DNA of 64,000 nucleotides from Aphrocallistes beatrix (lineage: Eukaryota > Porifera > Hexactinellida > Sceptrulophora > Aphrocallistidae), in assembly GCA_963281255.1 (NCBI GenBank), contig OY725490.1, positions 744,001 through 808,000 on the forward strand. Direction: 5' to 3'. The position numbers and the translations under genes were made by a program. Under the pieces are notes generated by a model. It saw only the letters and a list, made by a program, of their open reading frames with translations, made no database searches and was not told the origin of the DNA. Positions 5,001 to 58,100 of the stretch are shown here, piece after piece. The stretch's first letter is position 1. Each line of letters starts with the position of its first letter.

Positions 5001-8000
5001 GAACTACACATACTCTCTAGCTGCTGCTAACTGTAACGGCACATCTCTTCAAGTTGCAGCATCTCCATTGAGTATATCAAGTGAGTTCAGAAATATAGCA
5101 TTCATACATTGTTGGATATAAATATGCTAATTTAGCCAATGACCATGATCTGTAAGTACAAACTAATGATTGATTTATTAGAGTCATGATTTCAGTTAAA
5201 TTTATATAGCATATTATCTAGATGTAGATAATCTATACACATTCCAACTGTTGAAATTGAAATTCAATTTCGAATACTCAGACTATTCATAATATCTGAC
5301 CTGTTCTGCAAGTAGTATATCGCTACAGTGCTCACTCTTCCATACACATGAACCCCAGGCAATTACTTTCGCTCATATTGAAACTCCAGAAGATTTTTCA
5401 GGGAAAAACGTTTAATAAATAAATGCTTATCAAGCCCTTTTAATCTGTTCTTACTGGAAAAATGCCAGCCACTTTTGCTCAATTGTTTCCTAAACAAGGT
5501 CATGTAGAATAAATTACTGGTTTATCATCCATTTCTTTCAAATTAGGGAAGCAAGGATGCGATTTTATATTTATATGTTTCACTAAATATATATGCACAT
5601 CCATACTAATGGTTCAAGAGTATCGAAAAATTGAATCAAATTATTTGATTTATCAAACTTGATTAATATTATTATTAGCAAATTGAAAATAATCAAAATT
5701 GAACTGTATAGGGATGATACATTGTCAAGACGACAGATAAAATTGGGATGAGCAAGGATAGAAGACAACAATTTTATTTTGCATAACCCAAGTATAACTG
5801 CATAACTCTCTCTATATACACATTTATGTGTCTGTAAAATTTGAAAATATTTAATATTACTTTTGCTGCAGGTCATACCATTGACAGCTCCTTCATTTCA
5901 ATCAACTACAATCAATTAAATAATGAAGCTAACATTGAATGGGTTAGTTTCTTCAATTTATTTTCTGAGTCTCATCATAAATAGCTCATCATAAAATTAT
6001 TTATTCACAATTTGCAATTAGGTTAATAGCATGGAAATGAATCTAGCACCTCTCCTCATTGATTACTCTCTCACAGTCAACTATCATTACACTCAAAACA
6101 GTGTAACGCAGTCATTCAATGGAGATTCTATACTCAGTCTCCTGTCAGATGTAGAAACCCACACAATTCAACTAACACCTCACAGCTTCTCTACGAATAG
6201 CGGAGTTTCTTTTGAGATAACCCTGAGCTTGAAAATGGTTCGGCAGTGTGGGCAATCAGTGAATGGATTCGAAGTCCCTGGTTCTTTAAACACAGGTACT
6301 GAAGAATAAAATCTATTTGTGTATTAAATGTTAGCTCTGAAATGCAAATAACAGTTTGAATGGCCTAACTGTGGAGATGAATATTGTTAGATCCTAGTAA
6401 TGACACAAGTAGATCTTTGCGGAATTTTGCTAATTTGGCATAATAAAAGTATCACATGATATGCAACCAACGTTATAATTTGTCATATGCTATTCACTTT
6501 ATTAATCTTTTTTTATCAAAACGTTATGCAATTGAAAATATTAGCTTGTTTCTATCCCTAATTTACAGGTATTCAGATACAACAATTTCCAGAATATGCT
6601 TGTCCTGGAGACAGAATTGACATTATTTGCAACTTTACTGTCCCTAATGCTTCTATTTATACGTTTCTTAACCCTCAAACTGATCTTTTCATTGTTGGTA
6701 GTCAGGGAAATTTAGTCCTGCAAACGGTGATTGGTGCAAACCAAGAAAGTGGTGGCGTCAACCTGCAACGCTTGTCTGGAACTTCAGATCCAGTTTCTCC
6801 AACAAACTTTATCGGAAACATCTCTCTTCTCAGCTTCACTCCCTCTGATTCTGGATTACTCCTAGGATGTACTCGGAACTATGAGGAAACGGGTTCTATG
6901 GAAATTAGATCAATATTTGCAGGAGTAAATATTCAATCTATCGGTATGTTATTTACTGTGATGATTGCGCATGGAAATTTCCTTAAAATAGTGTTCAAGT
7001 ATCGTACGCTTATTTATTTTCGATTAGATTTAGCATTATGTCCATCATATTTTAGAGGTGAAATATCCTTTATAATAATGTAAATTATGCTCCTCGATTT
7101 AGTGATATCTAATTCCGTGCGTTAGCTTAGCGTTTCTAACTTTTGTACTATTAACCGTAGAATGCCCAGAGGGGAGACAGTATCTCCGATATCGCGGATG
7201 TCTCCCAGCCATTTTCTATGCAACTGAAGCCATATAAATGCTGGGGATTCTACAGTTAATTAACCCAATAGAATCTACAGAATATATATATTCTGAACAT
7301 ATACACTTCTCAGGCCCGGCGGAAGCAACTTTTTATTGGTCCGGCCAAAGCGGAAGTTGGTCCGGCCAAAGTGGAAGTTGGTCCGGCCAAAAGCAAATTT
7401 GCATATGAAAATAAGCCATAATGGCATAAAATTGGTCCGGCCAAAGCCGGACCAGCCGGACCAGTTCCGCCGGCCCTGCTTCTTAAGCCTCCTAATACTG
7501 ACGTCTGTGTTTCAATTACTATTGATACACAGTACTTTTATGTTGCTAATAATACTTAGACTCAGAGCATAAATTTCTGTGATAGTAATATAGACTAACA
7601 TTCTAAAACAATCAGTCTATAAATCAATAATTCTTTGGAAAGTTGAAAATTAGTTCCATTCCATATCTAAATTCATTCTATTTATGATGCTTTAACCGAT
7701 TATTTTATCAGTAATTGCACTGTTCAGGTTCTCCTCTCACTCCTACGTCATCATCAATATCTAACTCTGTAATAAACCCATCAACTTGTAATGGTGCAGT
7801 AACTGTACGTTGGGTAGCTGCTCCTTCCAATCCTCCGAACTCACACATCTTGTATCAGAATGGGATAGAGATTGCCACCATTAATTATCCACTAACATCA
7901 TACACTCACACTACAACGCTGCTACTCAATACAGAGTACAGTTACTCTGTAGCAGCCAGCAACTGCAATGGAACTTCTCTACACTCTCAAAGTGCTCCTA

Positions 8001-9634
8001 CTCTTCCTTCTATTGCAAGTTAGTTCAGAAAATAATTATGTTTGAGCAAGAATTTGACCAATGATAAAACCTGCTTATAGTACGCTACTCATAATGGTTC
8101 ACCGTCCATAGAAAGGGAAAGTGGACGCCAAAGACACTTTTTAAGGAAAATTATTTATACATGTAATTTTGAGTCTTGAGGTAAAATTCGTCAATCTAAA
8201 GCTCAGAACCTAAAATAGATAGTCCAAAATACTATCAGGATGTATACGTTATATTGCAAAGGCCTGAAAATTGGAGATAATATGATTATACTTATATAGT
8301 AAGATACGGCGTTTCATTTTTTTTTCGCAAAATTTATCTACAAATTCAATCAATTTTTTAATATTATCAAAAGCATTAGAAATAAGAGATTTGATTCGTC
8401 CGTCCCAGAAATTAGGTATGCTTCATACTAATTAATTTCATTTCTGGCTAAGAGTCTTATATTGAAAATAAATCTCGATTCTGATTCTTTCAATGCCAAA
8501 GTTCCTTATAGATTAACTCAAACAGTATACACAATTACTTCAATTTATTGAAATATATTCTCTCTCTCAGGCTACGATGTTACCACTAATATCAGTATTT
8601 CTTACGATCAGAGCAATAACATTGCGAATCTCTACTGGGTTGGTCCACTATGCAACATTAGAATTAATAAGTAAAATATAGATAATTAACTTGCTATATT
8701 CCTTAATAGAATCTTACACAGAACTCCCTTCAAGTAATTCTCATCGAGTATTACGTACAAATCAACTATACATATACTCAAGATGGTGTCACGGAATACT
8801 TCAATAATGAATCCACACTCACACTATTCCCAAATGTCACTAGCTATTCAGTACTATTGACAAGTCACAACTTTTCTACGAGTATTGGACTGTCAACTGA
8901 AATTTCTGTTGGCTTACAAATCAACAGACAGTGTGGACAATTGGTCCCACAGAGAATTATCTTGGGATCTTTCACAGGTAATAACTATTCATACAAATGA
9001 ACCTAAGTCTTGTCAATTTCCTTTTGAATGAGAAGTGTAACTAAATATGCTTTCCAATAGTTTCCAATCCTGCACCAGGGATACCTGCATCTAATAGAGG
9101 TAAGCTGAGACACAACCTAAGCATTCTGAATTTACTATATTATACCAGTATACAAGTATAACTGCTATTTATATCTCTTACTCACTGTTGCCATTCTTAG
9201 CTGTCATCGGAAGCGTTTTGGGAGTGTTAGGTTTGCTTATTCTCTTCTTTTCGATTCTTCTCATCATATTCGTTGCTTTGGGGATGTATAGATGTTGTAC
9301 AATGATGACAGGAAAAGGTAAATTCTACTCTTATCTGCAATAATATCCATAGTATGAGTTTATTACAGACGTATCTCTTCAATAGATTCGATACAAGCAA
9401 ATGAGAAGAATGTTTCAGAGTAAGTGTATATAGGAAATCAAAAATACAATCTCTAAGAATTCTAAATCACTTTCTATGGCCCTTAATAAGATGTACAAAC
9501 CTTTAAAGCTATGTTCCCATCTTACAATTAACATACAAATTAACGCAGAATAAATAATGTTTTAATATCTATTTTGCAGCATTGAGATGAAGCAGAGAGA
9601 AGATGCAGCTGATAGAAAGTCTTCAACCAAGAAA
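2042..9634 (+). CDS. Gene A: Ig/FN3 single-pass surface receptor
   Basis: I do not know a name for this receptor. Exons: 2042-2132, 3902-4300, 4787-5080, 5872-5942, 6022-6295, 6569-6943, 7728-8018, 8571-8638, 8710-8977, 9061-9099, 9201-9317, 9386-9419, 9580-9634. All have AG/GT borders and matching phases, giving about 792 open codons. Order: signal peptide (starts MDKLFQN), Ig-like domain (PEYAC...C...SDAGFLLGC), FN3-like (NYTYSLAAANCNG), split FN3-like unit, then a second Ig-like, FN3-like and split unit, a Pro/Asn linker, a membrane span (GVLGLLILFFSILLIIFVAL) and a charged tail. Start 2042 is preferred over in-frame 1961 because gene E begins with the same MDK exon of 91 nt. The YANV-type last exon of its paralogues was not found. 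Reading through the last donor adds VSY and a stop at 9646. Confidence 0.75.
2280..3627 (-). repeat. Type II dispersed repeat, interrupted by a transposon
   Basis: The two parts (about 2280-2367 and 3436-3627) match the repeat units at 26150-26440, 32680-33040 and 46040-46500. The left part carries an ACATAAAGTAAGCAA word. The right part ends in a GC-rich head (CGCCCGCAGGGCGACTCT, then AAGCAAGCTTGTA). The palindromic element 2368-3435 sits inside it. Confidence 0.55.
2368..3435. mobile_element. Palindromic TIR element 1 (1068 bp, 7-bp TSD)
   Basis: Two arms of about 500 bp are near-perfect inverted copies meeting near 2900. The ends are CATAGCCTACTA and TAGTAGGCTATG. The seven bases GCTAGAG flank both sides (2361-2367 and 3436-3442), as expected for a target-site duplication. 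No transposase ORF is seen, so it is non-autonomous. It lies in intron 1 of gene A. A second copy of 1067 bp is at 16743-17809. Confidence 0.85.
7151..7259. mobile_element. TTAA-flanked MITE
   Basis: It is bounded by TTAA on both sides, with inverted ends CCGTAGAATGCCCAG and CTGGGGATTCTACAG. The core (GCGGATGTCTCC, CAGCCATTTTC) recurs in a diverged copy at 63093-63169, also within TTAA. TTAA targets are typical of piggyBac-type elements; the assignment to that superfamily is inferred. Confidence 0.65.
7311..7478. mobile_element. GGTCCGGCC TIR element with internal tandem units
   Basis: Inverted ends CAGGCCCGGCGGAA and TTCCGCCGGCCCTG enclose about four GGTCCGGCCAAAG units. The CAGG...CCTG termini suggest a hAT-type MITE, but flanking duplication is poor (only CTTCT shared). 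It lies in the intron between the second Ig-like and FN3-like exons of gene A. The short open frame through it is repeat-derived. Confidence 0.6.
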
Positions 9635-9649
9635 GTGAGTTATTAGAGA

Positions 9650-11097
9650 TGGAAAACTGTACAGTAAAGTAATTACATAAATTCTCCACTGACTCCACAT
9701 TCATGCAGTGCTACTGAACTATATTCGCTTGCATAGCTTTTATTGCTACTCAAATAATGAAAGTGCGTAATTCAAGTAGTTTATTGGCTTGCGGCGATCG
9801 GTTTGTGTACTTATTCTGGATTGGCAAAGTCCCACTTTTAACAGTCTTAGCTGCGCCTCATATAATATATCCTTAAACCTAGTCGTAGAACCTTCGACAG
9901 TAGAATGAGCATTCCAACGAAGATAAGACTCAACAGGGGCACAGCCGAAACTATGTTATTTGCTTGGGATATTCAATTGAAGAATTGTCCCGGATACTTA
10001 ACCAGGGGTGGTGCTAGGTAGGATCAGGTATGGCTCAGGTTTCATGCAAGGGTTTATCTAGGTGCTCGGGCGGCACTTTTAGGCGCCAGTCTGGTATCGT
10101 CCGAGGAGCCAAGGTGCTTGCAGTGGGGATTCAATTTTTGGTACCGGATTACCACCATCCCTGGAATCACAAAATAAACTGTTTGGGTACCAAATAACTT
10201 TTATCACCGAAAAAGTGCCGGACTTGAAAGTTCTAGATAAACCCATGGTCTCATGAGAGTTTGAATGTGCCATACCCACAGTGGGCTACACTTAAATTCC
10301 CGCACAACATAAGATACGTCTAAAATGTTACAGCAGCCATCGCTTTTCATGGTTTAGCACGAATATTACTCAAAATGTAAAGTGAAAAAGAACATTATCA
10401 TTAAGCAATGCTTTCTAGAAGTGTGCTCCACATTAGTTATGCTGTCTCCACCTGTAACCACTAGGGACAGTAGCATAGTGCCACTCTTAGAAAGAATACA
10501 AATAACTTGTATTATCCTTATTTCCTCCCTTATAGTCTCCAATAACAGAAACTGTATACTCCAATCCTCAGCAGATGAGTGATGATATACAAGTGGCCTA
10601 AGTATCTTGGACATTGCGTTTCTGTTACTTTATAATCAATATTTATTCCACTTTCTGTATACTAAAGTCTCCATTTATTTCTGTTATTTTGTAATGATTA
10701 AAGAACTGATGTAGATTTTAAGAATGTGATAATATTATAATTACTTCCAACGCGTTTCGCTTGTCAACACAGCGGTGCAACCAAACACTTCTCGTTCACA
10801 TGAACCCTTCGCGCACCCACACTGTTGAAAATTCAAGTCTAAATATATTTGACAAAAACAATGTGGTTCTGAGGCCACAAAATGAGTGGTATTTTGCATT
10901 AGGACAATTAATAGAATATATTTTCTACTTTTGTATAAGTTGCATCTATTGCATTGTGTGTCAGGTAATGGTTTCATGAATAGTCCTACAGATATAGATC
11001 CCTTTTCTAGTCATAGAATTGTTCTTTTTGATAATAAGTAGAGATAATTTTGAATCTAGAAAGTTAAATTTTCATAAACTAAACAAAAATAATCTTA
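9650..11097. other. Intergenic stretch between gene A and the NHL gene
   Basis: No exon fits the receptor family here; the missing terminal tail exon of gene A was looked for and not found. It holds the MITE at 10047-10247. Short overlapping open frames near 10366-10614 and 10741-10979 run on both strands without recognisable similarity and look like chance. Confidence 0.4.
10047..10247. mobile_element. hAT-like MITE (CAAGGGTTTATCTAG)
   Basis: Terminal inverted repeats CAAGGGTTTATCTAG and CTAGATAAACCCATG are flanked by 8-bp near-repeats GTTTCATG (10039-10046) and GTCTCATG (10248-10255). An 8-bp duplication suits the hAT superfamily. Related ends occur near 15899 and 49470-49485. Confidence 0.65.
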
Positions 11098-11982
11098 TTA
11101 CAAAGAAAATATCTGCAAACTGCATTCATAGTGCCAAGACAAAACAACTAATTTACGATCTTTAGTAATAGCTATTCCATTTGGATAATAGAACAGTCCT
11201 ACATTATGTCCTCGCTCTCCTAACGTTTGGAGGAGTGTGCCTTCATTCGAGAATATTTTTATATTGTGAGCATCTCTATCACTGATAATGAAATTCTCAT
11301 TTGCATCCAGACAGAAGAAGTAAGAGTTGGTGACTTGCATTCCAACACCCCAAGTAATTAAAGACCTTAATTTCTGACCAGCGATTGTGAAGATGTGAAC
11401 ACATGGAGAGCTACAGCTGAGTACATATATCTCTACTGACGTCAGTATGACGTCACATGGTAGTGTCATGGAGTGGTGTGAGATGTGTCGTACGTATTCT
11501 AGGTCGCTATTCAGGATTTGAACTCTATTGTTTCCTTGATCAGAAATGAAGATTTCTCCCTTAGTAGAGACAATAAGTTGCCTAGGCTTATCAAACTGTC
11601 CAAATTCAGATCCTTTTCCTCCTGCCTTAGCCACTAGATTGATGCCTACAGACACTTTGAAATGAAATACGAAGTGCTCAAACAGATCTGTCACATAGAT
11701 ATTGTCTCTATAGATGGCCACACCCCATGGATCCTTCATATGCTCATTCGAGAAGGTGCTGATAAACGCACCAGTCATTGAGAATATAGACACACGTGGA
11801 GGTACTGCTTCTACCACATAGATCAGGTCGGTTTCAGAATCGATGGCGATACCTCGTAGTATATGTACCTGTCCGGTGGTTATAGTTTCTACTGTTCCAG
11901 CAATCAAATGTTCATAAACGTGTTCTCTGTGTGATTCTGTGGAATATAAAAGTTGGAACGCTTTAGAAAATTGAATTGCCAT
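11098..11982 (-). CDS. NHL-repeat beta-propeller protein
   Basis: One open frame of 294 codons with NHL-type blades, for example RGIAIDSETDLIYVVE (about residue 43), WGVAIYRDNIYVTD (about 85), PRQLIVSTKGEIFISDQGNN (about 132) and PNGIAITKDRKLVVL near the end. This is the pattern of six-bladed NHL propellers as in TRIM/LIN-41-like proteins, which bind RNA or protein partners. No RING, B-box or filamin domain is seen, and an in-frame stop directly precedes the ATG. It is therefore either a stand-alone propeller or the last exon of a longer gene whose 5' exons I cannot identify. It lies downstream of gene B on the same strand. A 5'-proximal part with its flank is duplicated at 21108-21488. Function is not deducible. 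Confidence 0.75.
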   Translation of the reverse strand: MAIQFSKAFQLLYSTESHREHVYEHLIAGTVETITTGQVHILRGIAIDSETDLIYVVEAVPPRVSIFSMTGAFISTFSNEHMKDPWGVAIYRDNIYVTDLFEHFVFHFKVSVGINLVAKAGGKGSEFGQFDKPRQLIVSTKGEIFISDQGNNRVQILNSDLEYVRHISHHSMTLPCDVILTSVEIYVLSCSSPCVHIFTIAGQKLRSLITWGVGMQVTNSYFFCLDANENFIISDRDAHNIKIFSNEGTLLQTLGERGHNVGLFYYPNGIAITKDRKLVVLSWHYECSLQIFSL

Positions 11983-13575: not shown

Positions 13576-15609
13576 TCACTTTGCTACATTCGCATAGACA
13601 GTATCTTCATTAGGAGCCTGTGGAAGGGATTAATATGTACTTAAATAAGCATAGTGTATATTTATTACTAAGAGAGAATTGGTCTATCTCTGATAACTTC
13701 CATCTATAATATCTTACTTTCTCGATTGAAAACTTTCCATCAACTGTATCATCTTCTCTCTGCTTCATCTCAATGCTACAAAATAGATATTAAAACATTA
13801 ATTATTCTGCGTTTATTTGCATGTAGAGATGACAACATGGCTTTCAAGGTTTGCACATATTACGTATTAAGGCCGATAGAAAGGGATTTTTAGAATGCTT
13901 AGTGCTTGTATTTTCGTAACATACACTTACTCTGAACCATTCTTCTCATTTGTTTGAATCGAATCTATTGAAGAGATGTGTCAGCAATAAACTCATACTA
14001 TGGATATTATTGCAGATAAGTGTAGAACTTACCTTTTTCTGTCATCATTGTATAACATCTATACATCCCCAAAGCAACGAAAATGATGAGAAGAATCGAA
14101 AAGAAGAGAATAACGAAACCTAACACTCCCAAAACGCTTCCGATGACAGCTAAGAATTGCAACAGTGAGTAAGAGATATAAATAGCAGTTATACGTATAT
14201 ACTGGTATAATATAGTAAATTCAGAATGCTTAGATTGTGTCTCAGCTTACCTCTGTTAGATGCAGGTATCCCTGGTCCAGGATTGGAAACTATTGGTAAG
14301 CATATTAAGTCACGTTTTTCATTCAAAAAGAAATTGGGAAGACTTGGGAACATTTGTATGAGTAGTTATTACCTGTGAAAGATCCCAAGATAATTCTCTG
14401 TGGGATCGATTGTCCACACTGTCTCATTATTTGCAAACCAACATAAATCTCAGTTGATAGTCCAATACTCGTAGAGAAGTTGTGACTTGTTAACAGTACT
14501 GAATAGCTAGTGACATTTGGAAATAGTGTGAGTGTGGATTCATTTTGGAAGTATTCTGTGACACCATCTTGAGTATAGGTATAGTTGATTTGTATGTAGT
14601 AATACTCGATGGGAAGTACTTGAAGAGACTTCTGTGTAAGATTCTATTGAAGAATAGAGCAAGTTGATTAGCTATATTTTCACCACATTACTACGTACTA
14701 GTGTAGCAAATTAGTGGACTAACCCAGTAGAGATTCGCAATGTTTGTACTTTGATTGTAAGAAATATTGATACTAGTGCTTGCAACATCGTAGCCTGAAC
14801 GAGAGAATAGGAGATTTAGTAAATATTATACTCTAAGTCAGAAATGAAACTTATTAGCACAAGCTTTTTAAAAATTGAATGGATTTGTAGATATTTGTAA
14901 AAACGTAACGTCGTCCTTTATAATTTGAGAAGCGCGCTTCGCTTGCTTTCGCTTCGCGGGTGGAAACTTTGTGTCCACCAGAGGCGTCGTTTCGACGCCT
15001 CTGCTCACATTGATTAATTATATGGTAGATAACATCTCTAGATACGTCTGTCCTATTGTTATAATCGATATTACTGAAAAAACGCCAAATTGTCTATTTT
15101 TAAGATTTATAATGAGTAATGATGACGTCATAACAGAGTGATGCATAATCATTTTGATCGCAGAGCCTCAAATCTCAAGATTATATGTAAAATAATTAAA
15201 GTGTCTTTAGCTCCAAACTCTGCATTTCTATGGACCGTGAACCATTATGAGCAGCGTGTACAAGCAAGTGATATTCTAATCTAATTCTTACTCAAACATA
15301 ATTATTTTCTAGACTAACTTGCAATAGAGGGAAGAGTAGGAGTACTTTGAGAGTGTGGAGAAGTTCCATTGCAGTTGCTGGCTGCTACAGAGTAACTGCA
15401 CTCTGTATTGAGTAGCAGCGTTGTAGTGTGAGTGTATGATGTTAGGGGATAATTAATGGTGGCAATCTCTATCCCATTCTGATACAAGATGTGCGAGTTC
15501 GGAGGATTGGAAGGAGCAGCTACCCAGCGTATAGTTACTGCACCATTACAAGTTGATGGGTTTATTACAGAGTTAGATATTGATGATGACGTAGGAGTGA
15601 GAGGAGAAC
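13576..15609 (-). CDS. Gene B: short FN3 receptor, inverted copy of gene A 3' half
   Basis: Exons in transcript order: 15319-15609 (FN3-like), 14724-14794 and 14373-14643 (split FN3-like unit), 14251-14289 (linker VSNPGPGIPASNR), 14033-14149 (membrane span), 13931-13964, 13718-13775 and 13576-13617 (ends TVYANVAK and stop). Borders and phases all agree and every exon is open. It is an inverted near-copy of 7728-9634 of gene A, with small in-frame indels (271 against 268 nt; 58 against 55 nt). No Ig-like exon is present. The place of the signal exon (about 16250-16345) shows the start ATG changed to ATA and an early stop, so secretion is doubtful unless another first exon is used. TVYANV fits the ITSM consensus TxYxx(V/I) and a YxN Grb2-type SH2 site. 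Confidence 0.6.
14928..15235 (+). repeat. Type I dispersed repeat copy
   Basis: It begins with the GCGCGCTTCGCTTGC head, then GACACTTTG-like and GGAGGC-like words. The body (ATCGATATTACTGAAAAAACGCC, then a GACGTCATAA word) matches 20256-20650. It sits in the gene B intron between the FN3-like exon and the split unit. Confidence 0.55.
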
Positions 15610-20961: not shown

Positions 20962-21107
20962 GGGCATGCCTAATTTCCGGGACGGGACGGAACCGTCCCG
21001 GAAAATCTAGAGACCTAATTTCCGGGACGGGATCCCGTCCCGTCCCGGAAATTAGGTCTCTAGATTTTCCGGGACGGTCCGTCCCATCCCAGAAATTAGG
21101 CATGCCC
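20962..21107. mobile_element. GGGCATGC hairpin MITE, 9-bp TSD (copy 1)
   Basis: The element is almost wholly palindromic, from GGGCATGCCTAATTTCC to GAAATTAGGCATGCCC, with repeated CGGGACGGGA words. The nine bases TTAAAGACC precede and follow it exactly. A 9-bp duplication suggests a Mutator-like element. It inserted into the duplicated NHL copy and truncated it. Confidence 0.85.
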
Positions 21108-21488
21108 TTAAAGACCTTAATTTCTGACCAGCGATTGTAAAAATGTGAACACATAGAGAGCTACAGCTGAGTACATATATCTCTACTGACGTCAGTATGA
21201 CGTCACATGGTAGTGTCATGGAGTGGTGTGAGATGTGTCGTACGTATTCTAGGTCGCTATTCAGGATTTGAATTCTATTGTTTCCTTGATCAGAAATGAA
21301 GATTTCTCCCTTGGTAGAGACAATGAGTTGCCTAGGCTTATCAAACTGTCCAAATTCAGATCCTTTTCCTCCCGCCTTAGCCACTAGATTGATGCGAGCA
21401 GAGAATGTCCATAAACGTGTTCTCAGTGTAATTCTGTGGAATCTAAAAGTTGGAACGAAAATTGAATTGCCATTTATTCTTCCTTGAT
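21108..21488 (-). pseudogene. Truncated duplicate of the NHL gene
   Basis: On the minus strand this matches the middle of the NHL gene at 11098-11982 almost base for base (for example GKGSEFGQFDKP and TKGEIFISDQGNN), then lacks the C-terminal blades where the hairpin element starts. The 5' part between the start codon and AKAGGKGSEF is also deleted. It lies downstream of gene C on the same strand, just as the intact NHL gene lies downstream of gene B. Confidence 0.8.
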
Positions 21489-22586
21489 ATTTGCTTATTG
21501 AAAGAATCTATTGAATACTATATGAGTCTCTTGCTATATATGAGTGATTTTGCAAGCCTAAGTGAAGGAATATAGCTTCAAGTTTCATGTCGTGATCTCA
21601 TTATCTACTTATCACGAGATCTAGTCTGGCGCCAAATTAGATGTTGGAAAATATAGAATTTCTGAGGTCTATTAGTAAATACGTTTTCATGATTCAGTAA
21701 GATAATCGGTTATGTCTAATAAGATGTGAAGTCAAAATACTTGTAGCAGCAAAAGTGTATATTAGCAAATTTAACTTTGCATCAAATAATAATTACAGTT
21801 GACTTCGCTTATTTATTGGGTCACATCGTGAACTAATATTGAGTCCGATCGAGTCCTGGAGCCTGGAGGTCCACTCCTTGATGGTTTCTGCGGTCTCGTC
21901 CCCATACCAGGCCCTGCTTCCTCCGTAACAACCACTAGACTGAAAAGGAATGTAGAGAATTAATGAATGAAATCTGGCGGGCTGATTAGTGCGAACAATC
22001 AGCAAGTTGCAAAGTGACTATATTCCCTGATAAACACCTGTCTACCTGTAACTTCACTAATCCTCTCCCTTCGCCCCCACCTACACTATTGAATTCTAAC
22101 TTTTACACTTAATCAGTTTAATATAGAGTTATTTAATACAGGAATCAATTCCGTTCGCAAACGTTCGTTCCTTAGAATTAGTGTGAATAACCATCCGTGT
22201 ACAGGATGCCACAGTTAATGATAAGCCAGAATTAAGGTACAGGATTTCAAAATGTGTACTATACGTATTGCATACAGTTGGGTATTGGATCCCAAAAGGA
22301 TAAATATTAATGATCTCATTTATTATCCACAATATGTGCAGACTCTAAGTTTGAATAAATTTGAAGGAATTTAGTGAGGATTATCAAATTCTAATCAAAA
22401 ACCAGAAATACAAATAAGAAAAGAATGCAATCAATAAACTAAGAGGATAAATGTGTGTAAATTGTCCAAATTAGAAACAAATACAGGTAAGCAATGGATA
22501 AATACAGATTGAATACAGAAGTATAGGATGAGAAGATCAATGTATGAGTTCAAAAAGGCCTAAAATAGTCAGTCCTGAGCTGTCAC
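21489..22586. other. Duplicated intergenic flank of the NHL locus
   Basis: This is a direct copy of about 11990-13575, with a deletion of about 490 bases. It includes the conserved open frame (21793-22005, minus strand). Confidence 0.55.
21793..22005 (-). other. Conserved unrecognised open frame, copy 2
   Basis: It shares SLILYIPFQSS and CYGGSRAWYGDETA with the frame at 12818-13045. The family is unknown, and coding status is unproven because both lie within a recent duplication. Confidence 0.3.
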
Positions 22587-22884
22587 TCACTTCGCTACAT
22601 TCGCATAGACAGTATCTTCACTAGGAGCCTGTGGGAGGGATTAATATGTACGTAAGTAAACATAGTGTATATTTATTACTAAGAGAGAATTGGCCTATCT
22701 CTGGTGACATACTTTCTCGATTGAAGACTTTCCATCAATTGCATCTTCTCTCTGCTTCATCTCAATGCTACAAAATCCTTACTATTAAAATATTTATGTG
22801 TGTTTGTGTATCTTATATATTAATACGCCAGGATTTTCTTTTTTTTGTCCGAATGTTGGAACCATGTGCGGCGCTAGCGAGCTA

Positions 22885-23644: not shown

Positions 23645-26149
23645 CCCACGGCAACCCTGATTTAAGATAATAATAGATTCAGAAAATTGAAGGTTCAAAT
23701 CTTCACCATATAAGGAATATATATTCCAAATTTGGTGTGATTAGATCCGATTAAATCTCCAGGAGCGAGCAGACTGACGTACGGACGTTACACACCGATC
23801 ATGACATAAGGTATCTCCTATTCTTGGAGCTGCACAAAAAATAGAGGCATGTTCTATATGAAAATAATATGTTTGATTAACTAATATTTAATTAAATTAT
23901 CCTTTATATGAAATATTTGAGGTGACTAGTCTTTACGATTTATTGCTATTATAATATCCAATTATATGAGCAGTAGTTAGTTAGCATCATACCCCATACT
24001 AAATAAACTTACTCTTTTTCTTTCTTCTCAATTACTGCTTCTGTAATAGAATGTTTATATTAAAATTTACTGTATTTGGCTCTTAACAAATAGGAGATAA
24101 CCAACCTTTTTCTGTCAACATTTTATGCCATATAATTGCGCCAATAACAGCAAAAATAACGGTTAAGATAATGAAGGCAAGGATGAGGAAGCCAATAATT
24201 CCCAAACCAATCGCAGCAGCAACTAAAATAAATAATTCATCAAAATGTATTCTTGAAGATTTTAAAATATCAGACTGCGAGTGAGTAAAATCATAAATTC
24301 ATTAAGACATACCATTGATAGAAGCAGCAGTTTCAGATCCAGGGAGAGTGACTATGAGAAAGCATTCGTAACAAAAGCGTATCCAAAGATCTGCCTGCAG
24401 GATCTCTAAGGCCTACTGGCAGTGGCGACCCAGAAATTGAACCTGGCCAACTTAAACAGGTTTCCTTTTTGCCAATTTTACACACTATTAGGATTCGCGG
24501 TGGATTTATAATAATACCTAATAAATACCCCTGATATGATGATTACAAAAAATATCAACAATTCTTTTACGTATATGAAAAGATCAAGACAAAAATTTAG
24601 GGAGCAATCATTATTTGTGGAGTCACACCCTCCATGGCACTCAGTGGATCCACTACTACCAACTGGACCAGGAGATTTGTCGTTTTAGGTTGCTACAGAT
24701 GATGTCGGAGTGTTGATAATCTCTCCTGATCTGTAATGAGTGATACAGGAGGATAAAGTTTTTGATTAGATTGGTGCATATTCTAATAATTCACAAAATT
24801 ATAGTTATTGTAAATTCATCTAATTTTAGAAACGTACCATTATTAGGAGCAGCAGTTTCCGTTTGAGGATTGGTTGCTATAAAAAAAAGCACCAGTAACC
24901 AAAGGCATAGGGAGGGGGGTCAGTGGGGGAAGCTTTCCCCCTGGCTGGATAAAGTCGGAATATTTATTTAGTAAATTATAAAATAATCGGTGAGAGAGGA
25001 GTTTATCAGGGGTAACTTGTATTTCTAGTACCTTAAAATTAGATAAATCTGTCCAGATCTTGGGACAAATCGTTGTTAACTTCCAGGGGCAAAGTTCCTG
25101 GACCCCACAGGGGACTTATAGCGCCCCCAGACCCCCATCTGGTTGATATACCCCCCTACAAAAATTCTTGCATACGCCCATGCATGTAGCTTACTCGAAT
25201 TATAATGGAATATTATATTCTAATTCTCGGTAATATCATACTTAGCTCTATGTAATGCATTGATTAATTTCTCTTCCAAACTTTCCTTTCTGATTTATCA
25301 GACTTGTACGCTCATTCTAAACATATCTTAAGAAAATACAAGTATAAGTACATTGTATATATCCTCTCACCTTGAAGAGTGCTGTTGCTAGGAGCAGTAG
25401 TTTCTGTTCGAGGATTAGTTACTATAAATAATCACATGAAACATATACTAAGAGTCCGGAAAAACTCCATACCCCCGCTCATGAATTTATGGATTTTCTG
25501 CAACCGCCCGCGCATATTTCAGCTAAAGTATTTTATGTTTTCAAAAGCTACTTATTGTATAACAGTCAGTACTTACCTTGGAAGAATCCAAAAATGATTG
25601 AATCTTGAATCACTTGGCCACATTGCCTCATAATTTGTAATCTACTGAAATCTCAGTAGACAGTCCGTCAACAGCAGAAAATACATGGCGATTCAACTGT
25701 AAGGAATAACTGGTGTTAGTCGACAAGAGATTCAGTGTTGTGTTGGTTTGGAAATGCTCTGCACTTTCATCTCGAGAATATATATAGTCGATTTCAAGGC
25801 TATATTGAATGGATAGAATTTGGAGAGAATTCTGAGTTAGATTCTACAAGACGAAACAAAGTTTTATAAATTAGGCAATTACAGGTCTCAGTACGTTACT
25901 ATGGATATAGTATACTAACCCAGTTGAGATCTACTGTGTCACTGGTCTGGTTGTAAAGAACACTGACATTACTGCTCTCAATGCTGTAACCTAATGGAAT
26001 AAATCATATATCATATAATGTAGCTCTCAGTGTATATTGATTTCAACACACTTGTAATTCGAGTCACTATAGTAAAAGAATCAAAATGCAGAAAACTGTA
26101 AATATGTGATAATTTAGGGGTTTTCAGGGGTGTAGATTTCGAATATCAT

Positions 26150-51300: not shown

Positions 51301-53974
51301 ACAATCTCTCCAATCACAAGTGAGTTTCAGAGGAAATAAAATAGTTGAATATAATCGAAATCTATTCGTTTAGGAGGTATCATGTATTTTTCGAGAGGAT
51401 GAATCATAATACAAAATTCAATTATTTGTAAATTTCTCAACTTGAAAATATAAAACCTCGAATACGTTTCGTATAGAAAAAACGTTCCAAATTTATTTCA
51501 TTTTCTTCCAATAGGCTATAACTTCACAAAGGATGATGTCAGTATTCTCTACAATGAGAGCAGTGACTCAATAGATCTCCACTGGGTTAGTACACTGTTA
51601 CAGGCTGGAGAGTGGAGTTAAGTAATAAAAGCATTATCTCTGTCTTGTCTATAATAGAACCTAACTCAGAATTCCTTTCAAATTCTACTCATTGAGTACT
51701 TCTTGCAAATCAACTATACTTACACTCAAGATGGTGTAGCAGAGTATTACCTCAATCAAACCACATTCTCTCTCTTCTCAAATATCACGACCTCTTCCCT
51801 ACAGTTGATTGATCATACCTTTTCTACTAACAATGGATTGTCAACAAACATATCGGTTAGCTTGAAACTCATGGAACAATGTGGACAAGCACTCCCACAG
51901 AGAATACTCTTGGGATCATTCAGTAGTAAGTATTAACTAATATAATTTTAATGCAGTTACCGCAGAAGTATTTTACTTCAAATATCTAAACCATCCGAAA
52001 GTTACTTCGCTGACTGTCGTCTGTGATGCGTCAGATCATTTAAAAGTTACTTTCGTTCAATTTTCAAAGGTGGATTGAAATCTCCAATTATGTTTAATAA
52101 ATCACATACAAAGGTTCACTCAATCACTGTGTAGGAGTGGATCCATTGATTGGGAAAGCACAATAGTTGCAGTTGCAGTTGCTACAAAGTATATACAAAT
52201 TTGTGACGCTGCTCAATCACTTTGCCATACAGCTCTTATATTAAATATACCTATGGAATGCATTGCCTGTAACTTAGGCTTATAAAATAACAATTGGATT
52301 CATTTGTTTCATTCCTGCATCTGGAAAGATATCCGAAACATTAAATCTTTAAAAACTGAAAGTACATTGATGCGATATATCTCAGGTATTGGTAATTAAG
52401 AATAGCATCAGTGATGGGGAAATTCTCAATTATTGACGACGCAGAGTGTGTTAGATATTTCTGATGGGAACCTGCCAAGATGCATTATTCCCAAGCTGGT
52501 GTACCAAAAAACATCAGTAACTAGTACTCGTAGATACCATTGTTATTGCTGTAGCCGCTGTCTATAACCATAATGAAGAATATCTGTGATCTTAGAGCAA
52601 TTGAACTTTGTATTGTGGTTTTTAAGCAGTTTTGAATCCTTAATATGCACTTAATTAATGATTATCAATTCTTATAGCTACCACTCCGTCTGTAGAAAAT
52701 GCTGCTTTCAACAGTGGTAAGTTTCAGACATATTTATATATATAAAATCTACTGCAAAGAATTGATTGTTGATTTATAATCAACTCAGAACATTTCCTAT
52801 ACGTATGAATTCTTATATTTAGTTATCCCTGGGAGCATTTTGGGATTGATAGGATTTCTCATTCTTGCCGCATGCATTTTTCTCATCATCGTCGTCAGCG
52901 TTGGAATGTATATCTATTGGAAGCATTCGAAGGAAGAAGGTCAGTTATATCTCTCTGAGTGATTATAAATTAAGAATTGTCTATAATATTTATGAATGAT
53001 ATCTAATAGACACTAATCAAACAAATGAGGGAAAAGATAAAGAGTAAGTTTATTCTGGATGGAGTATATTAAACCACTGCTCTCATCTTTTGATATTTAT
53101 AGTATTAAATCGTAAAAAATAGCATTTCCAATACAGTAGATACTGGTTAATAAGAACATCGTTAGGTGTCAATCAAAATGTTCCTATAACCTGTGTGTGT
53201 TTACACAGTATTGGACAATAAGATACTAACAGTGCAGGATTCTTCAGTGAACTCAGGCTTGGGAAATTTTATCTAAAATCTAATATGCTAGAAGAGTGAC
53301 TTTCTAGTCGCACCATTTTTTGTAATAAGGTTCTGCACGTGAATATAGAAAATGACATTTTAAAATTTGCACAGAAGAGTATTAGAAGATTAGAATTGTT
53401 GTTTTAGTTCATTTTGATATTGAGTTGTGAATTTCTGAATGATGAATAATAGGATAAATTAAGTTAAATTGTTCTTCTATTGGTTATGAGAATAACTGTA
53501 GATGCGACTAAGAATCGAAAGATTTTCGATCTATAAATACAGTCAAACGTTTTATTTACATACATAGTACCTATCTTCTATAATTCTGTAGTCTTGAGCT
53601 GAATCAGAAAGAAACCGATCAAGCAAAATCTCCAAACGATAGCGTAAGTTCCTTGAGAGAAATACAATTATTACTGTACTTGTATATTGATATTATGATT
53701 ATGCATTTACAATACTGGTAGTTTCAAATTCATATCCTGATTGAAACACCACTTATCGCCTACATTCGCGCTTTGCGCACTCTCGTAGCGCGTCTGGCAA
53801 ATATTTTATATTCGAAAAGTTCCATTCGAAGAGATATTCAGCATTGATAATAATGACTACTTTCACCAATCCATTTCGAAATATTTTATGTTTATATTTG
53901 TCTATCACATTTATTCATTTCCTCTCCTCTAGGCTCCCAATAATATCTATGCTAATCCAGAAAATTGTGATTGA
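42330..53974 (+). CDS. Gene E: Ig/FN3 receptor with YANP tail
   Basis: Exons: 42330-42420, 44997-45374, 47468-47755, 48604-48888, 49942-50012, 50080-50344, 51041-51319, 51515-51585, 51658-51925, 52678-52716, 52823-52939, 53010-53043, 53592-53643, 53933-53974. They sum to 2280 nt, a multiple of three, with every join in phase and no stop until the end (759 residues). Order: signal peptide (MDKSLQN...FLISGLTLYVQ), divergent Ig-like domain, two FN3-like domains in a row, split FN3-like unit, FN3-like, split unit, linker, membrane span (LIGFLILAACIFLIIVVSV), charged tail, and NIYANPENCD before the stop. Many NxT/S sites fit an extracellular role. The Ig-like exon has lost both usual cysteines (VVIKYEL, LLDFGFS). 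Compared with gene A, one split unit and the second Ig-like exon are absent. No family name is known to me. Confidence 0.78.
42756..43391. mobile_element. GGACCTGTCA inverted-repeat element
   Basis: The left end (GGACCTGTCACAAAAA, then GGTCGGGGGGACC) and right end (CCCCCGGACCAATTTTTG, then TGACAGACC) are inverted copies over about 35 bases. Further GGTCC/GGACC words lie inside. No clear flanking duplication was found. It lies in intron 1 of gene E. Confidence 0.6.
43624..44135. mobile_element. hAT-like element filled with GGGTCACT minisatellite (copy 1)
   Basis: Ends CAGAGTGGACCATGGGTCAC and GTGACCCATGGTCCACTCTG. ATATGCAT flanks both sides (43616-43623 and 44136-44143), an exact 8-bp duplication as in hAT elements. 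The interior is tandem CTGGGTCA/CATGGGTCA in both orientations around a unique core (TTTTAGAAGGTTATAAG). It lies in intron 1 of gene E. Confidence 0.9.
44150..44530 (-). repeat. Type I dispersed repeat copy (reverse)
   Basis: It matches 20256-20650 in reverse: the tail (ATTGATTGAAGAAACTG), TTGGAGTCTTTTGGCTATG, ATGACGTCAT and the head (CGCGCAGTTAAGCAAGCGAAG). Confidence 0.6.
44700..44795 (-). repeat. GC-rich head fragment of type II repeat
   Basis: Contains GACTCTGCGGACATGTAG and AAGCAAGCGAAGCATGCTTG, the head shared by the type II repeats, without the body. Confidence 0.5.
45416..45600 (+). repeat. Single arm fragment of a CATAGCC palindromic element
   Basis: It begins CATAGCCTACCTAAG and shares ATGCAGAATG and GGCATATATAAAT words with the arms of elements 1 and 2. 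The opposite arm and flanking duplication are missing. Confidence 0.55.
45955..46560 (+). repeat. Type II dispersed repeat, three tandem units
   Basis: The head (GCTCTTCGTTTGCTTTCGC, then CTGCGGGCGCCTGGAG) is followed by three diverged units of about 140 bases, each holding a CCCCATGTCAACCGTTG-like and a TTGTTTACTTTAT word. It ends in the AAATGTGCACATAATC stretch. Confidence 0.65.
49244..49490. repeat. Partial CTAGATAATCCCC repeat
   Basis: The end ACGCCTAAAGGAGCGTCTCG...CTAGATAATCCCCT matches, reversed, the stretch 15899-15960. Only one terminus is clear. It lies in a gene E intron. Confidence 0.4.
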
Positions 53975-55107: not shown

Positions 55108-58100
55108 CTAAGCTAATTCTGCGTTGCCACCTGAATGTTCTGGATTAGCATACACATCCTCTGCAATCTGAGGCTAGAAGAGAGAATAAATGGTGAAACA
55201 TAAGATGCATTAGAATGTTAAATATCTTTTTATTGTAGTGAACGATCATAAGCTATGGATATTATCAAGGCAATACTGCATATAGGTTGATTGCGTTACT
55301 ATTGGGACATATCTCCATGGACATTTTAGTGCCCATACATATTAAATTTCATTGGTCAATTGGGACAAATATGACTTTAGATATTTCCAGATTAAAGAGT
55401 TGACTGTAAAAAAGTAAATACAGCACACCTTGACCAAGATCATGAATATTGTAAAATTGTTCGTATAGTTTCTAAATAGAATCAATTTGATTCTGGCACA
55501 ACATGTTGGTGGTTCTTTCACTATAAGTTGATAAGCATACTTGTAGCTACCTGTTCAATCTTCTTCTCTAGATCATTCTGTCCAAACCTTAAAAGGAACA
55601 AAATAATAGAATAGAATAATTGATTATGAATAAGCACTGAACTGTAAGATGTAAGGAAGTTTTGCACAGGGCTGGGGTTGGTTAACCGATTTTAGGGCTC
55701 AGTCATTTGGTTTCCTCCAGGGCGGTTAACCGGTTAACCGATGTCAATATAAATTAGTAAAAATATGGATTTTTGGACTAATCTTTAACCTGGTATTAAT
55801 AATTTTATAATTTTCAGTGGTCTCGAAATATATTATATGATTATAAAATAGGAATTATACTGTATTATCAAAATTTTAGAAGCAATATTCATGATTCTCC
55901 GTAGAAAAACAATGAAATTAGTGTAAATATTTATAAAATAAAGCCGATCGAGGATTTCCTTAACCGTTAACCGGGATTGACGGCGGTTAACCGGTTAACC
56001 GAATCCAGCCTTGTTTTGCATTTACATATACGTCTTCGCCAGTAAGAGTATTCATACTTGGTGTAACAAAATTGGAATAATTTTACATTCTGGGAAATTC
56101 CTACTTGGCGTGGAGCATGCATATAGTACAGCTGTATTATGAATATATATTCAAGGAATTTCATTTTAGATTTAGAAAAAATCAATGATACAGGGTCATT
56201 CAGATTTCAAGTTTAGGGAGTTATTGTGATTCCCTATTGGTCAATAGAATCAATGCCAACTGTAATGTTAAATCCTTGGATTCTGATTTTGATGATACAT
56301 TTTAACACTTTTTGTGAAAAAGTTTGAAGATTTTGCAGAATTTGTCAGGTCCGATTCTCCATCATATAAGGAGTATATAGTCCAAATTTGGTGCAATTTA
56401 GCCCAATAGAATTTTCAGGCGCGAGCATACGGGAGTACGTACGTTATACAACAATCATGACAAAAGGCGTCCCTTATACTAGGAGCTCCATTAAAAACAG
56501 TAAGCATTCTAGTACAATTTCGACTAAATATTTCAAAGAGTTATATAAACTTACCCCTTAATTTTCTGTCCATTTACTGAATATGAGCCTATTAATACAT
56601 GTAATCTATAAACTGAGATAATGGGACAAGTAGAAGCCTAGGGTAGCGGATATACGAAATCTACAGAGTATAGAGACAGAAGAAGTGGATGAAATCGCTC
56701 ATTTGTTCAAAAAATACTTATATTTAATACGATTTCGTAGGAATTAGAAGTTGAGGCAAATTTTTCATTGTTCCTCTTGTACTCTTAATTTTTTGAAAAG
56801 GTTAGATTATTGAGGGCATGCTTAATTTCCGGGATAGGACGGGTTAAGATGCCTAATTTCCGGGACGGGACGGGTTAAGATACCTAATCTCCGGGACGGG
56901 ACAGAAAAGGTACCTAATTTCCGGGACGGGGCGGGTTAAGATACCTAATTCCCGGGACGGATTCCGTCCCGTCCCGGAAATTAGGCATGCCCGATTATTG
57001 ACACTACTAAAATTTAGTTATTATCCCAGTAGGTCATTACAGTGGTAGTCAGATGTAAGCTGGTAGTCGCAGTTTCCTTCTTGATAAACTTCTGGAATTA
57101 GATGAAACTACCCCCTATCCAAAACTACTGAAAACTGTAAGATTTCGTACTTATTACACAATGAATAACTTGTGTTCTCTGCTATGTAGAGATATCCCTA
57201 CTTTGCGCAGAAAAAATTCTTAATTTAAGAGCAATCTAACTAACCTCTCCTTCTCATCATCGAATAGCATGTGAACATTCCCCAAACTACTAAGATTATG
57301 AGCAGAACAGAAAAGAAGAGAATTCCGAAGCAAATGATCCCCAAAATGCTTGCGATAAGAGCTAAGAAAGGAATTCTAGTTAAAGATACCGCCCGTGAAA
57401 AATCCATAGGTTTGGCTTACAGCATATATCAAGAATAGAGATATATAAGATGTTAAGCGTGGGCAGGTAGTGCAATTAAAAAATATTGAGACATGCCAAA
57501 CAGTTTTTGGTTCACATTTCTAGTTTTTGAATTACAGCGTCTCAAAGTCGGTTTTTTCCGTTTTTCCCTAGCACATCTTAATGGTAAGCCCTCCTGCACT
57601 CTGTGATTTTTTTAAAGCACATGTTTGGATCAAATGCTTCGAAAATTTATTCATAGATAGTCTATCATATTTGCCACTTCATAGGACCAAAAGAAAGTTA
57701 AAATTTTAAAAATTGTAAATTTTATCGGTGTCCGAATAAAAAGGGCCAAAAAACGGCGAAAAAAGTCCGATTTTCTTTGCAAATCAGCAATAAAACCACA
57801 AATTTATAAAATATCAAAAATTGAGTGGTCCTACGCTCATCGCCTAATGATATGGAACAACTCCTGAAATTTTCAAACCTCTATCTCAAAGCAATTTTGA
57901 GTTAAAATTTTTGAAAGACGGTCAATTTTGGAATTTTAAAGTCCCGAGATATAGGGATTTGAAGTTTTGATTGTAAGAACGATGTAAAATGAGCTATTAA
58001 CGAAAAATAAAAGCATCCATGGACATTTAATCGCGTGTATACTAATTAATTAGATGTATTCCAACAGATTTTGGTGAAAATAGCAAAATTATACTGAAAA

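Follow-up and report, generated by a model that had tools for sequence, protein, structure and literature searches.

The closest known counterparts of the receptor family described here would appear to be the Alr complex of Hydractinia symbiolongicarpus and the FcoR complex of Botryllus schlosseri. Alr is reported to comprise 41 genes, with ITIM/ITAM-type motifs on candidate genes (PMC11999971, PMC12065747), and the FcoR receptors of the fuhc locus have tails with ITIM, hemITAM or core Yxx[ILV] motifs that differ between members (PMC12065747). The relevant excerpt of the latter source states that cnidarian and tunicate allorecognition receptors converge on ITIM/ITAM signalling. For DAP10, the section of the source that treats it describes a YINM sequence in which a p85-binding YxxM and a Grb2-binding YxN are combined (PMC7226588).

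We analysed a stretch of 64,000 nucleotides from the glass sponge Aphrocallistes beatrix (the window; positions 744,001 to 808,000 of contig OY725490.1, C3 below) together with related sequences in the same genome. The initial annotation had read the motif TVYANV just before the stop codon in the last exon of one receptor gene, gene B. Our results place the motif at 13576-13617 on the minus strand, where it continues the reading frame of the exons for the transmembrane segment and tail; its position near the end stands, but it does not directly adjoin the stop, as the residues AK intervene. A plus-strand reading of this interval was ruled out, the motif being absent from that strand. The codons of the exon are GCT CCT AAT GAA GAT ACT GTC TAT GCG AAT GTA GCA AAG TGA, and a polypyrimidine-AG acceptor (ttccacag) stands in front of them. 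Joined to the three preceding exons, whose borders are all AG/GT, the terminal exon gives a single frame that stays open from the transmembrane part through to the stop. For all receptor genes described here, exon structure was deduced from splice signals and reading frame in the genome sequence. The exons of gene B that are needed below are as follows.

14033..14149, minus strand: gene B transmembrane exon, VIGSVLGVLGFVILFFSILLIIFVALGMYRCYTMMTEK (bounded by AG/GT, frame open when joined)
13931..13964, minus strand: gene B second tail exon, DSIQTNEKNGS(D) (bounded by AG/GT, frame open when joined)
13718..13775, minus strand: gene B third tail exon, (D)IEMKQREDDTVDGKFSIEK (bounded by AG/GT, frame open when joined)
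13576..13617, minus strand: gene B terminal exon, APNEDTVYANVAK followed by the stop (acceptor, frame, stop TGA)

The motif recurs in gene C, and genes E and F end in NIYANP and DVYANP, all of which had been annotated and is borne out by translation. Gene A, missing from the earlier list, was found to have a TVYSNP ending as well. The corresponding exons of the other short-tailed genes are given below; all terminal exons close with a stop codon.

9201..9317, plus strand: gene A transmembrane exon
10536..10601, plus strand: gene A terminal exon, SPITETVYSNPQQMSDDIQVA, with TVYSNP (translated exon)
24107..24229, minus strand: gene C transmembrane exon (range of the sequence match, C3:768107-768229)
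22587..22628, minus strand: gene C terminal exon, APSEDTVYANVAK, with TVYANV (translated exon)
52825..52947, plus strand: gene E transmembrane exon (range of the sequence match, C3:796825-796947)
53933..53974, plus strand: gene E terminal exon, APNNIYANPENCD, with NIYANP (translated exon)
57237..57362, minus strand: gene F transmembrane exon (range of the sequence match, C3:801237-801362)
55108..55173, minus strand: gene F terminal exon, PQIAEDVYANPEHSGGNAELA, with DVYANP (translated exon)
C3:896875-896910, minus strand, outside the window: gene H terminal exon, DPNTVYANPEN, similar to that of gene E

A search for related genes listed 10 matches, namely nine transmembrane exons and one tail exon, and searches with the transmembrane exons of genes J and H found nothing beyond these members. 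An ending of the form [VI]Y[AS]N[PV] closes six of the nine related transmembrane genes (A, B, C, E, F and H), a count that for gene H leans on the Y.N filter because the gene was first found with it. Paralogues without the terminal tyrosine form a minority of three: gene I (C3:516 kb) has the terminal exon with Phe in place of Tyr (DVFENQ); for gene G (892 kb), in other respects close to H, neither a comparison with that gene nor a scan of 6 kb revealed a terminal exon; and the last exon of gene J (1849 kb), by our reading, is IPTDTESQD without Tyr, with VYNN one exon earlier. The initial annotation had named tail exons without the tyrosine in further paralogues as a refutation of its reading, and this objection applies in part. 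In the six genes with the motif, the Tyr codon varies silently between TAT and TAC and the Asn codon is constantly AAT; six tails are too few for a selection test.

Both strands of 258 kb of C3 were also scanned for exon-like stretches, defined as AG followed by 8-35 codons and a stop and holding [VI]Y[AS]N[PVL]. The resulting 12 rows represent nine distinct stretches, seven of which come after receptor-family exons and two of which (both IYSNL) do not; the association of motif exons with the receptor family is above chance. One of the seven, at 743.6 kb just upstream of the window, is the tail exon APNEDTVYANVTVQD (with stop) of a receptor copy at C3:741291-743640, a truncated copy in which neither a second X exon (see below) nor a transmembrane exon was seen. 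The window also holds an NHL-repeat gene of one exon, which lies between receptor genes A and B (11101-11982, minus strand; NHL E 2.8e-14) and a partial copy of it between B and C (21055-21507, minus strand), as if the NHL gene had been duplicated together with the receptor unit.

The family extends well beyond the window. When the ectodomain exons of gene A were used as queries, at least 130 matches were obtained, at least 126 of them on C3 between 0.517 and 1.834 Mb. In gene M (976.5-978.6 kb), the transmembrane segment and the tail share one exon, which carries SQYECI and ends in PEYANLK before the stop. This exon as a query gave 37 matches (E up to 5), from which 28 stretches were taken to make, with gene M, a sample of 29 long tails; seven weak matches on C1, C10, C17 and C18 (E 0.079 to 1.65) fall outside this sample. 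The long-tailed relatives are spread over C3 0.95-1.61 Mb. YANLK and a stop form the in-frame end of 27 of the 29 tails, and in the other two (L065 and L066), which are frameshifted, the YANLK letters are present in another frame. The usual long tail reads KPAPSHPYEYIDLDxxSGNISSPTQQQSPQDYVPMSSVxKQDSTxxPTQYANLK before the stop. Within the sample, YVPM occurs in 21 tails, YxxM in 24 and YE[YCH]I in 27.

Some members depart from this pattern. The tail at C3:1449280-1449889 (L067/L090) has six tandem YVPM blocks before a terminal SEYANLK, and these blocks may form a graded array for PI3K docking. In gene K (912.6-917.8 kb), the tail exon is longer (C3:917034-917789) and bears a YxxM array that includes YYTKM, YTQM and YIQM, and this tail is weakly matched (E 0.0117) by an open frame with similar repeats near 937 kb (C3:937262-937633). 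A tail of the YANLK family was also found at C6:1344415. On C14, a one-exon receptor (C14:3872476-3873867, plus strand) joins three I-set Ig domains (E 1.6e-31) to a YANLK tail, so the ending is not tied to a single ectodomain type. Across both groups, YxN is present in six of the seven short terminal exons (the seventh having Phe for Tyr) and in all 27 in-frame long tails, yet the homology of the two endings is not proven, given that the long tail occupies one exon and the short one four.

It had been proposed that the tyrosine site is under selection. This is supported in the long-tailed family, and the short tails are too few to extend it to them. Specifically, YANLK shows zero amino-acid differences among 26 paralogues while its codons vary (pN 0.000, pS 0.250), compared with pN 0.151 and pS 0.202 in the remainder of the tail and pN 0.333 and pS 0.533 in the transmembrane part; the frameshifted L065 and L066 and also L067 were left out of these 26. 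Counted as distinct codon states in the same tails, YANLK has 0 nonsynonymous and 5 synonymous states against 122 and 45 in the remaining tail (Fisher p 0.0018), a test that is only rough because the states are not independent events. Between the C14 tail and 24 others, pN reaches 0.493 outside the motif, and YANLK again shows pN 0.000 with pS 0.687.

With regard to domains that could read the motif, 62 SH2 profile matches were found in the genome; 20 stretches were examined and four of these were compared with solved structures. A Grb2-like SH2 domain lies at C17:549043 (E 1.5e-44), where the Trp aligns with that of human Grb2 (FLWMVKF under FLWVVKF), and the adjoining match at C17:547932 is similar by eye. 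A further Grb2-like domain lies at C10:3608826 (E 2.2e-41), with the Trp seen by eye in SIWVLKL. The order SH2-iSH2-SH2 of p85 is found at C12:2710325-2711449 (E 1.5e-39 to p85alpha) and, by position, at C2:796661-799625; the iSH2 matches on C12 and C2 are below the curated cut-off, and the control of that search matched in one archaeon. According to the part of the source that gives the binding rules, Trp EF1 of Grb2 reads Asn at pY+2 and p85 reads Met at pY+3 (PMC7337045). The proposal that YAN would suit the YxN preference of Grb2-type SH2 domains is in line with the Asn at +2 in six of seven short and 27 of 27 long tails. The predicted p85 docking features are likewise present, as YxxM in 24 of 29 long tails and as p85-type SH2-iSH2-SH2 proteins in the genome; the short tails of the window are without YxxM. 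An SHP2-like SH2 domain is also encoded (C8:161304, E 1.8e-40), so the SH2 readers present do not single out Grb2. A whole-genome search for the Wnt domain found none, possibly a limit of the search since its control was silent everywhere; glass sponges are reported to be without Wnt in the portion of the literature that we cite (PMC10282587).

The outer part of the receptors had been described as Ig/FN3 ectodomains. The exons read as Ig are modelled with confidence as a beta-strand domain but show no convincing Ig profile match, and the fn3 match is below threshold. The exons concerned are listed here for gene A.

6565..6945, plus strand: gene A second Ig-like exon (a beta-strand domain in the model)
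7715..8020, plus strand: gene A FN3-like exon (an open frame; its fn3 match, E 0.0073, falls short of the curated cut-off)
8743..8976, plus strand: gene A exon for the membrane-proximal domain X (this member matches no Pfam family)

When 13 members of the Ig-like exons in the window were scanned against Pfam, the sole Ig family was Ig_2, in one member and at E 0.34, and a search against PDB sequences gave no match up to E 5. A model built from 13 sequences has nine strands (pLDDT 92.8), and in the alignment the later two Cys are absent in 1 and 2 of the 13 rows; "Ig-like" is accordingly used here as a structural inference. Domain X was modelled with strands (pLDDT 86.9) and has no convincing family match. 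Values of dN/dS were 0.40-1.19 for the Ig-like exon in the 10 of 45 pairs with at least 60% identity and 0.15-0.41 for domain X in five of six pairs; some of the copies compared may be pseudogenes. Among the matches listed, FN3 exons also form dense clusters at C1 0.58-0.81, C4 5.2-5.9, C6 0.78-1.47 and C12 4.34-4.35 Mb, which are perhaps parallel receptor expansions. An open frame of more than 1000 codons with Ser/Thr-rich minisatellite repeats (C3:1820001-1823853, minus strand), near FN3-like and X exons, is perhaps a mucin-like stalk.

Judging from the tail motifs and the kinds of SH2 domain encoded, these clustered receptors probably dock Grb2 through YxN and PI3K through YxxM once phosphorylated. 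The terminal exon would be a C-terminal phosphotyrosine docking site on a single-pass receptor belonging to a large clustered family. In expressed receptors, a fast-changing ectodomain would bind a ligand or cluster, and a Src-type kinase would then phosphorylate the tail tyrosine. A Grb2-type SH2 domain could bind the resulting pY-x-N. In long-tailed members, the p85 subunit could in addition recruit PI3K to the pYVPM nearby, and YEYI is a candidate site for a Src-type SH2 domain. Short-tailed members such as gene B would have retained the YxN plug alone.

It is also conceivable that the ending is not a phosphotyrosine site, being instead a C-terminal sorting signal of the YxxO type, where O is a bulky hydrophobic residue, or a by-product of recent 3'-end duplication and gene conversion. 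The motif does lie at the extreme C-terminus, YANL (27 of 27 long tails) and YANV (genes B and C) fit YxxO, and genes G and J manage without a terminal motif; YxxO, however, has no requirement for Asn at +2, and Pro at +3 in genes A, E, F and H is a misfit. Homogenisation would be expected to leave the tail with a lower pS (0.20) than the transmembrane part (0.53), as is the case, so part of the likeness of the tails may be gene conversion. Yet pS of YANLK (0.25) is not below that of the remaining tail (0.20) while its pN is 0 against 0.15, and the C14 receptor retains YANLK despite high divergence. Gene conversion does not account for a pN of 0 where pS matches that of the flanks, and we regard a sorting signal or by-product as unlikely.

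A switch or inhibitory reading is similarly improbable. The initial annotation had found that TVYANV fits the ITSM; with an ITSM or ITIM, the phosphorylated tail would act as a switch or brake by recruiting either phosphatases of the SHP type or an SH2 protein like SAP. Genes B and C do satisfy TxYxx[VI] with their TVYANV, an SHP2-like SH2 domain is encoded, and the best Pfam match of the transmembrane segment and tail of gene B, although weak, is SIT, the SHP2-interacting transmembrane adaptor (E 0.0066, 17.4 bits against a cut-off of 27.6). The relaxed pattern TxYxx[VIL] occurs in 14 of 27 long tails, an ITIM pattern at YAN in 3 of 27, and SQYECI of gene M can be added. The strict TxYxx[VI], in contrast, is found in 2 of 7 short exons (B and C alone) and in 0 of 27 long tails, the residue at -2 is variable (T, D, N, P, S or A) but Asn at +2 is constant, and neither ITSM nor ITIM accommodates the Pro that genes A, E, F and H have at +3. 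Compared with YxN in 6 of 7 and 27 of 27, these counts led us to reject the ITSM as a signature of the family. In genes B and C themselves, ITSM-like use may hold because TVYANV is one letter from the NTB-A ITSMs, which the portion of the source that lists them gives as TVYASV (human) and TVYAQV (mouse) (PMC7226588).

In our best reading, the predicted docking of Grb2 and PI3K follows the logic of DAP10 more closely than that of an inhibitory switch. In the parts of the open-licence literature searched, we found no description of tails like these in sponges or other early animals. The layout of the family in this one genome suggests that it may serve immunity or allorecognition. A clustered family that couples fast-changing ectodomains to docking motifs of the Grb2 and PI3K types would represent a further route from recognition to signalling, and the peptides and SH2 domains involved can be tested directly. 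A wider proposal, which we put forward tentatively and consider rather doubtful, is that this is a megabase-scale recognition complex of an early-branching animal using a PI3K and Grb2 (costimulatory) code instead of ITIM/ITAM, in which the outer domains change fast, the inner plug is frozen and the tail modules (YxN, YxxM arrays, YEYI) are varied as a graded read-out.

Among ITSM receptors of the SLAM family (NTB-A, 2B4), the TVYASV listed in the relevant part of the source (PMC7226588) comes close to the TVYANV that genes B and C carry, but the sponge receptors as a family conserve neither the Thr at -2 nor the V/I at +3. As described in the cited excerpts, Alr resembles the present family in being clustered and having unusual Ig-type ectodomains, and FcoR in being clustered with tail motifs that vary by member. 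The likeness to Alr is one of description, the motifs common here being YxN and YVPM; FcoR combines Ig and sushi domains in its ectodomain and uses other types of motif. The long-tailed members are reminiscent in motif content of DAP10 and of CD28-type costimulatory tails, which carry a p85-binding YxxM and a Grb2-binding YxN, since they too would combine the two. In DAP10, one tyrosine on a partner chain serves both, whereas here separate tyrosines lie on the receptor itself, and the genes of the window carry YxN only.
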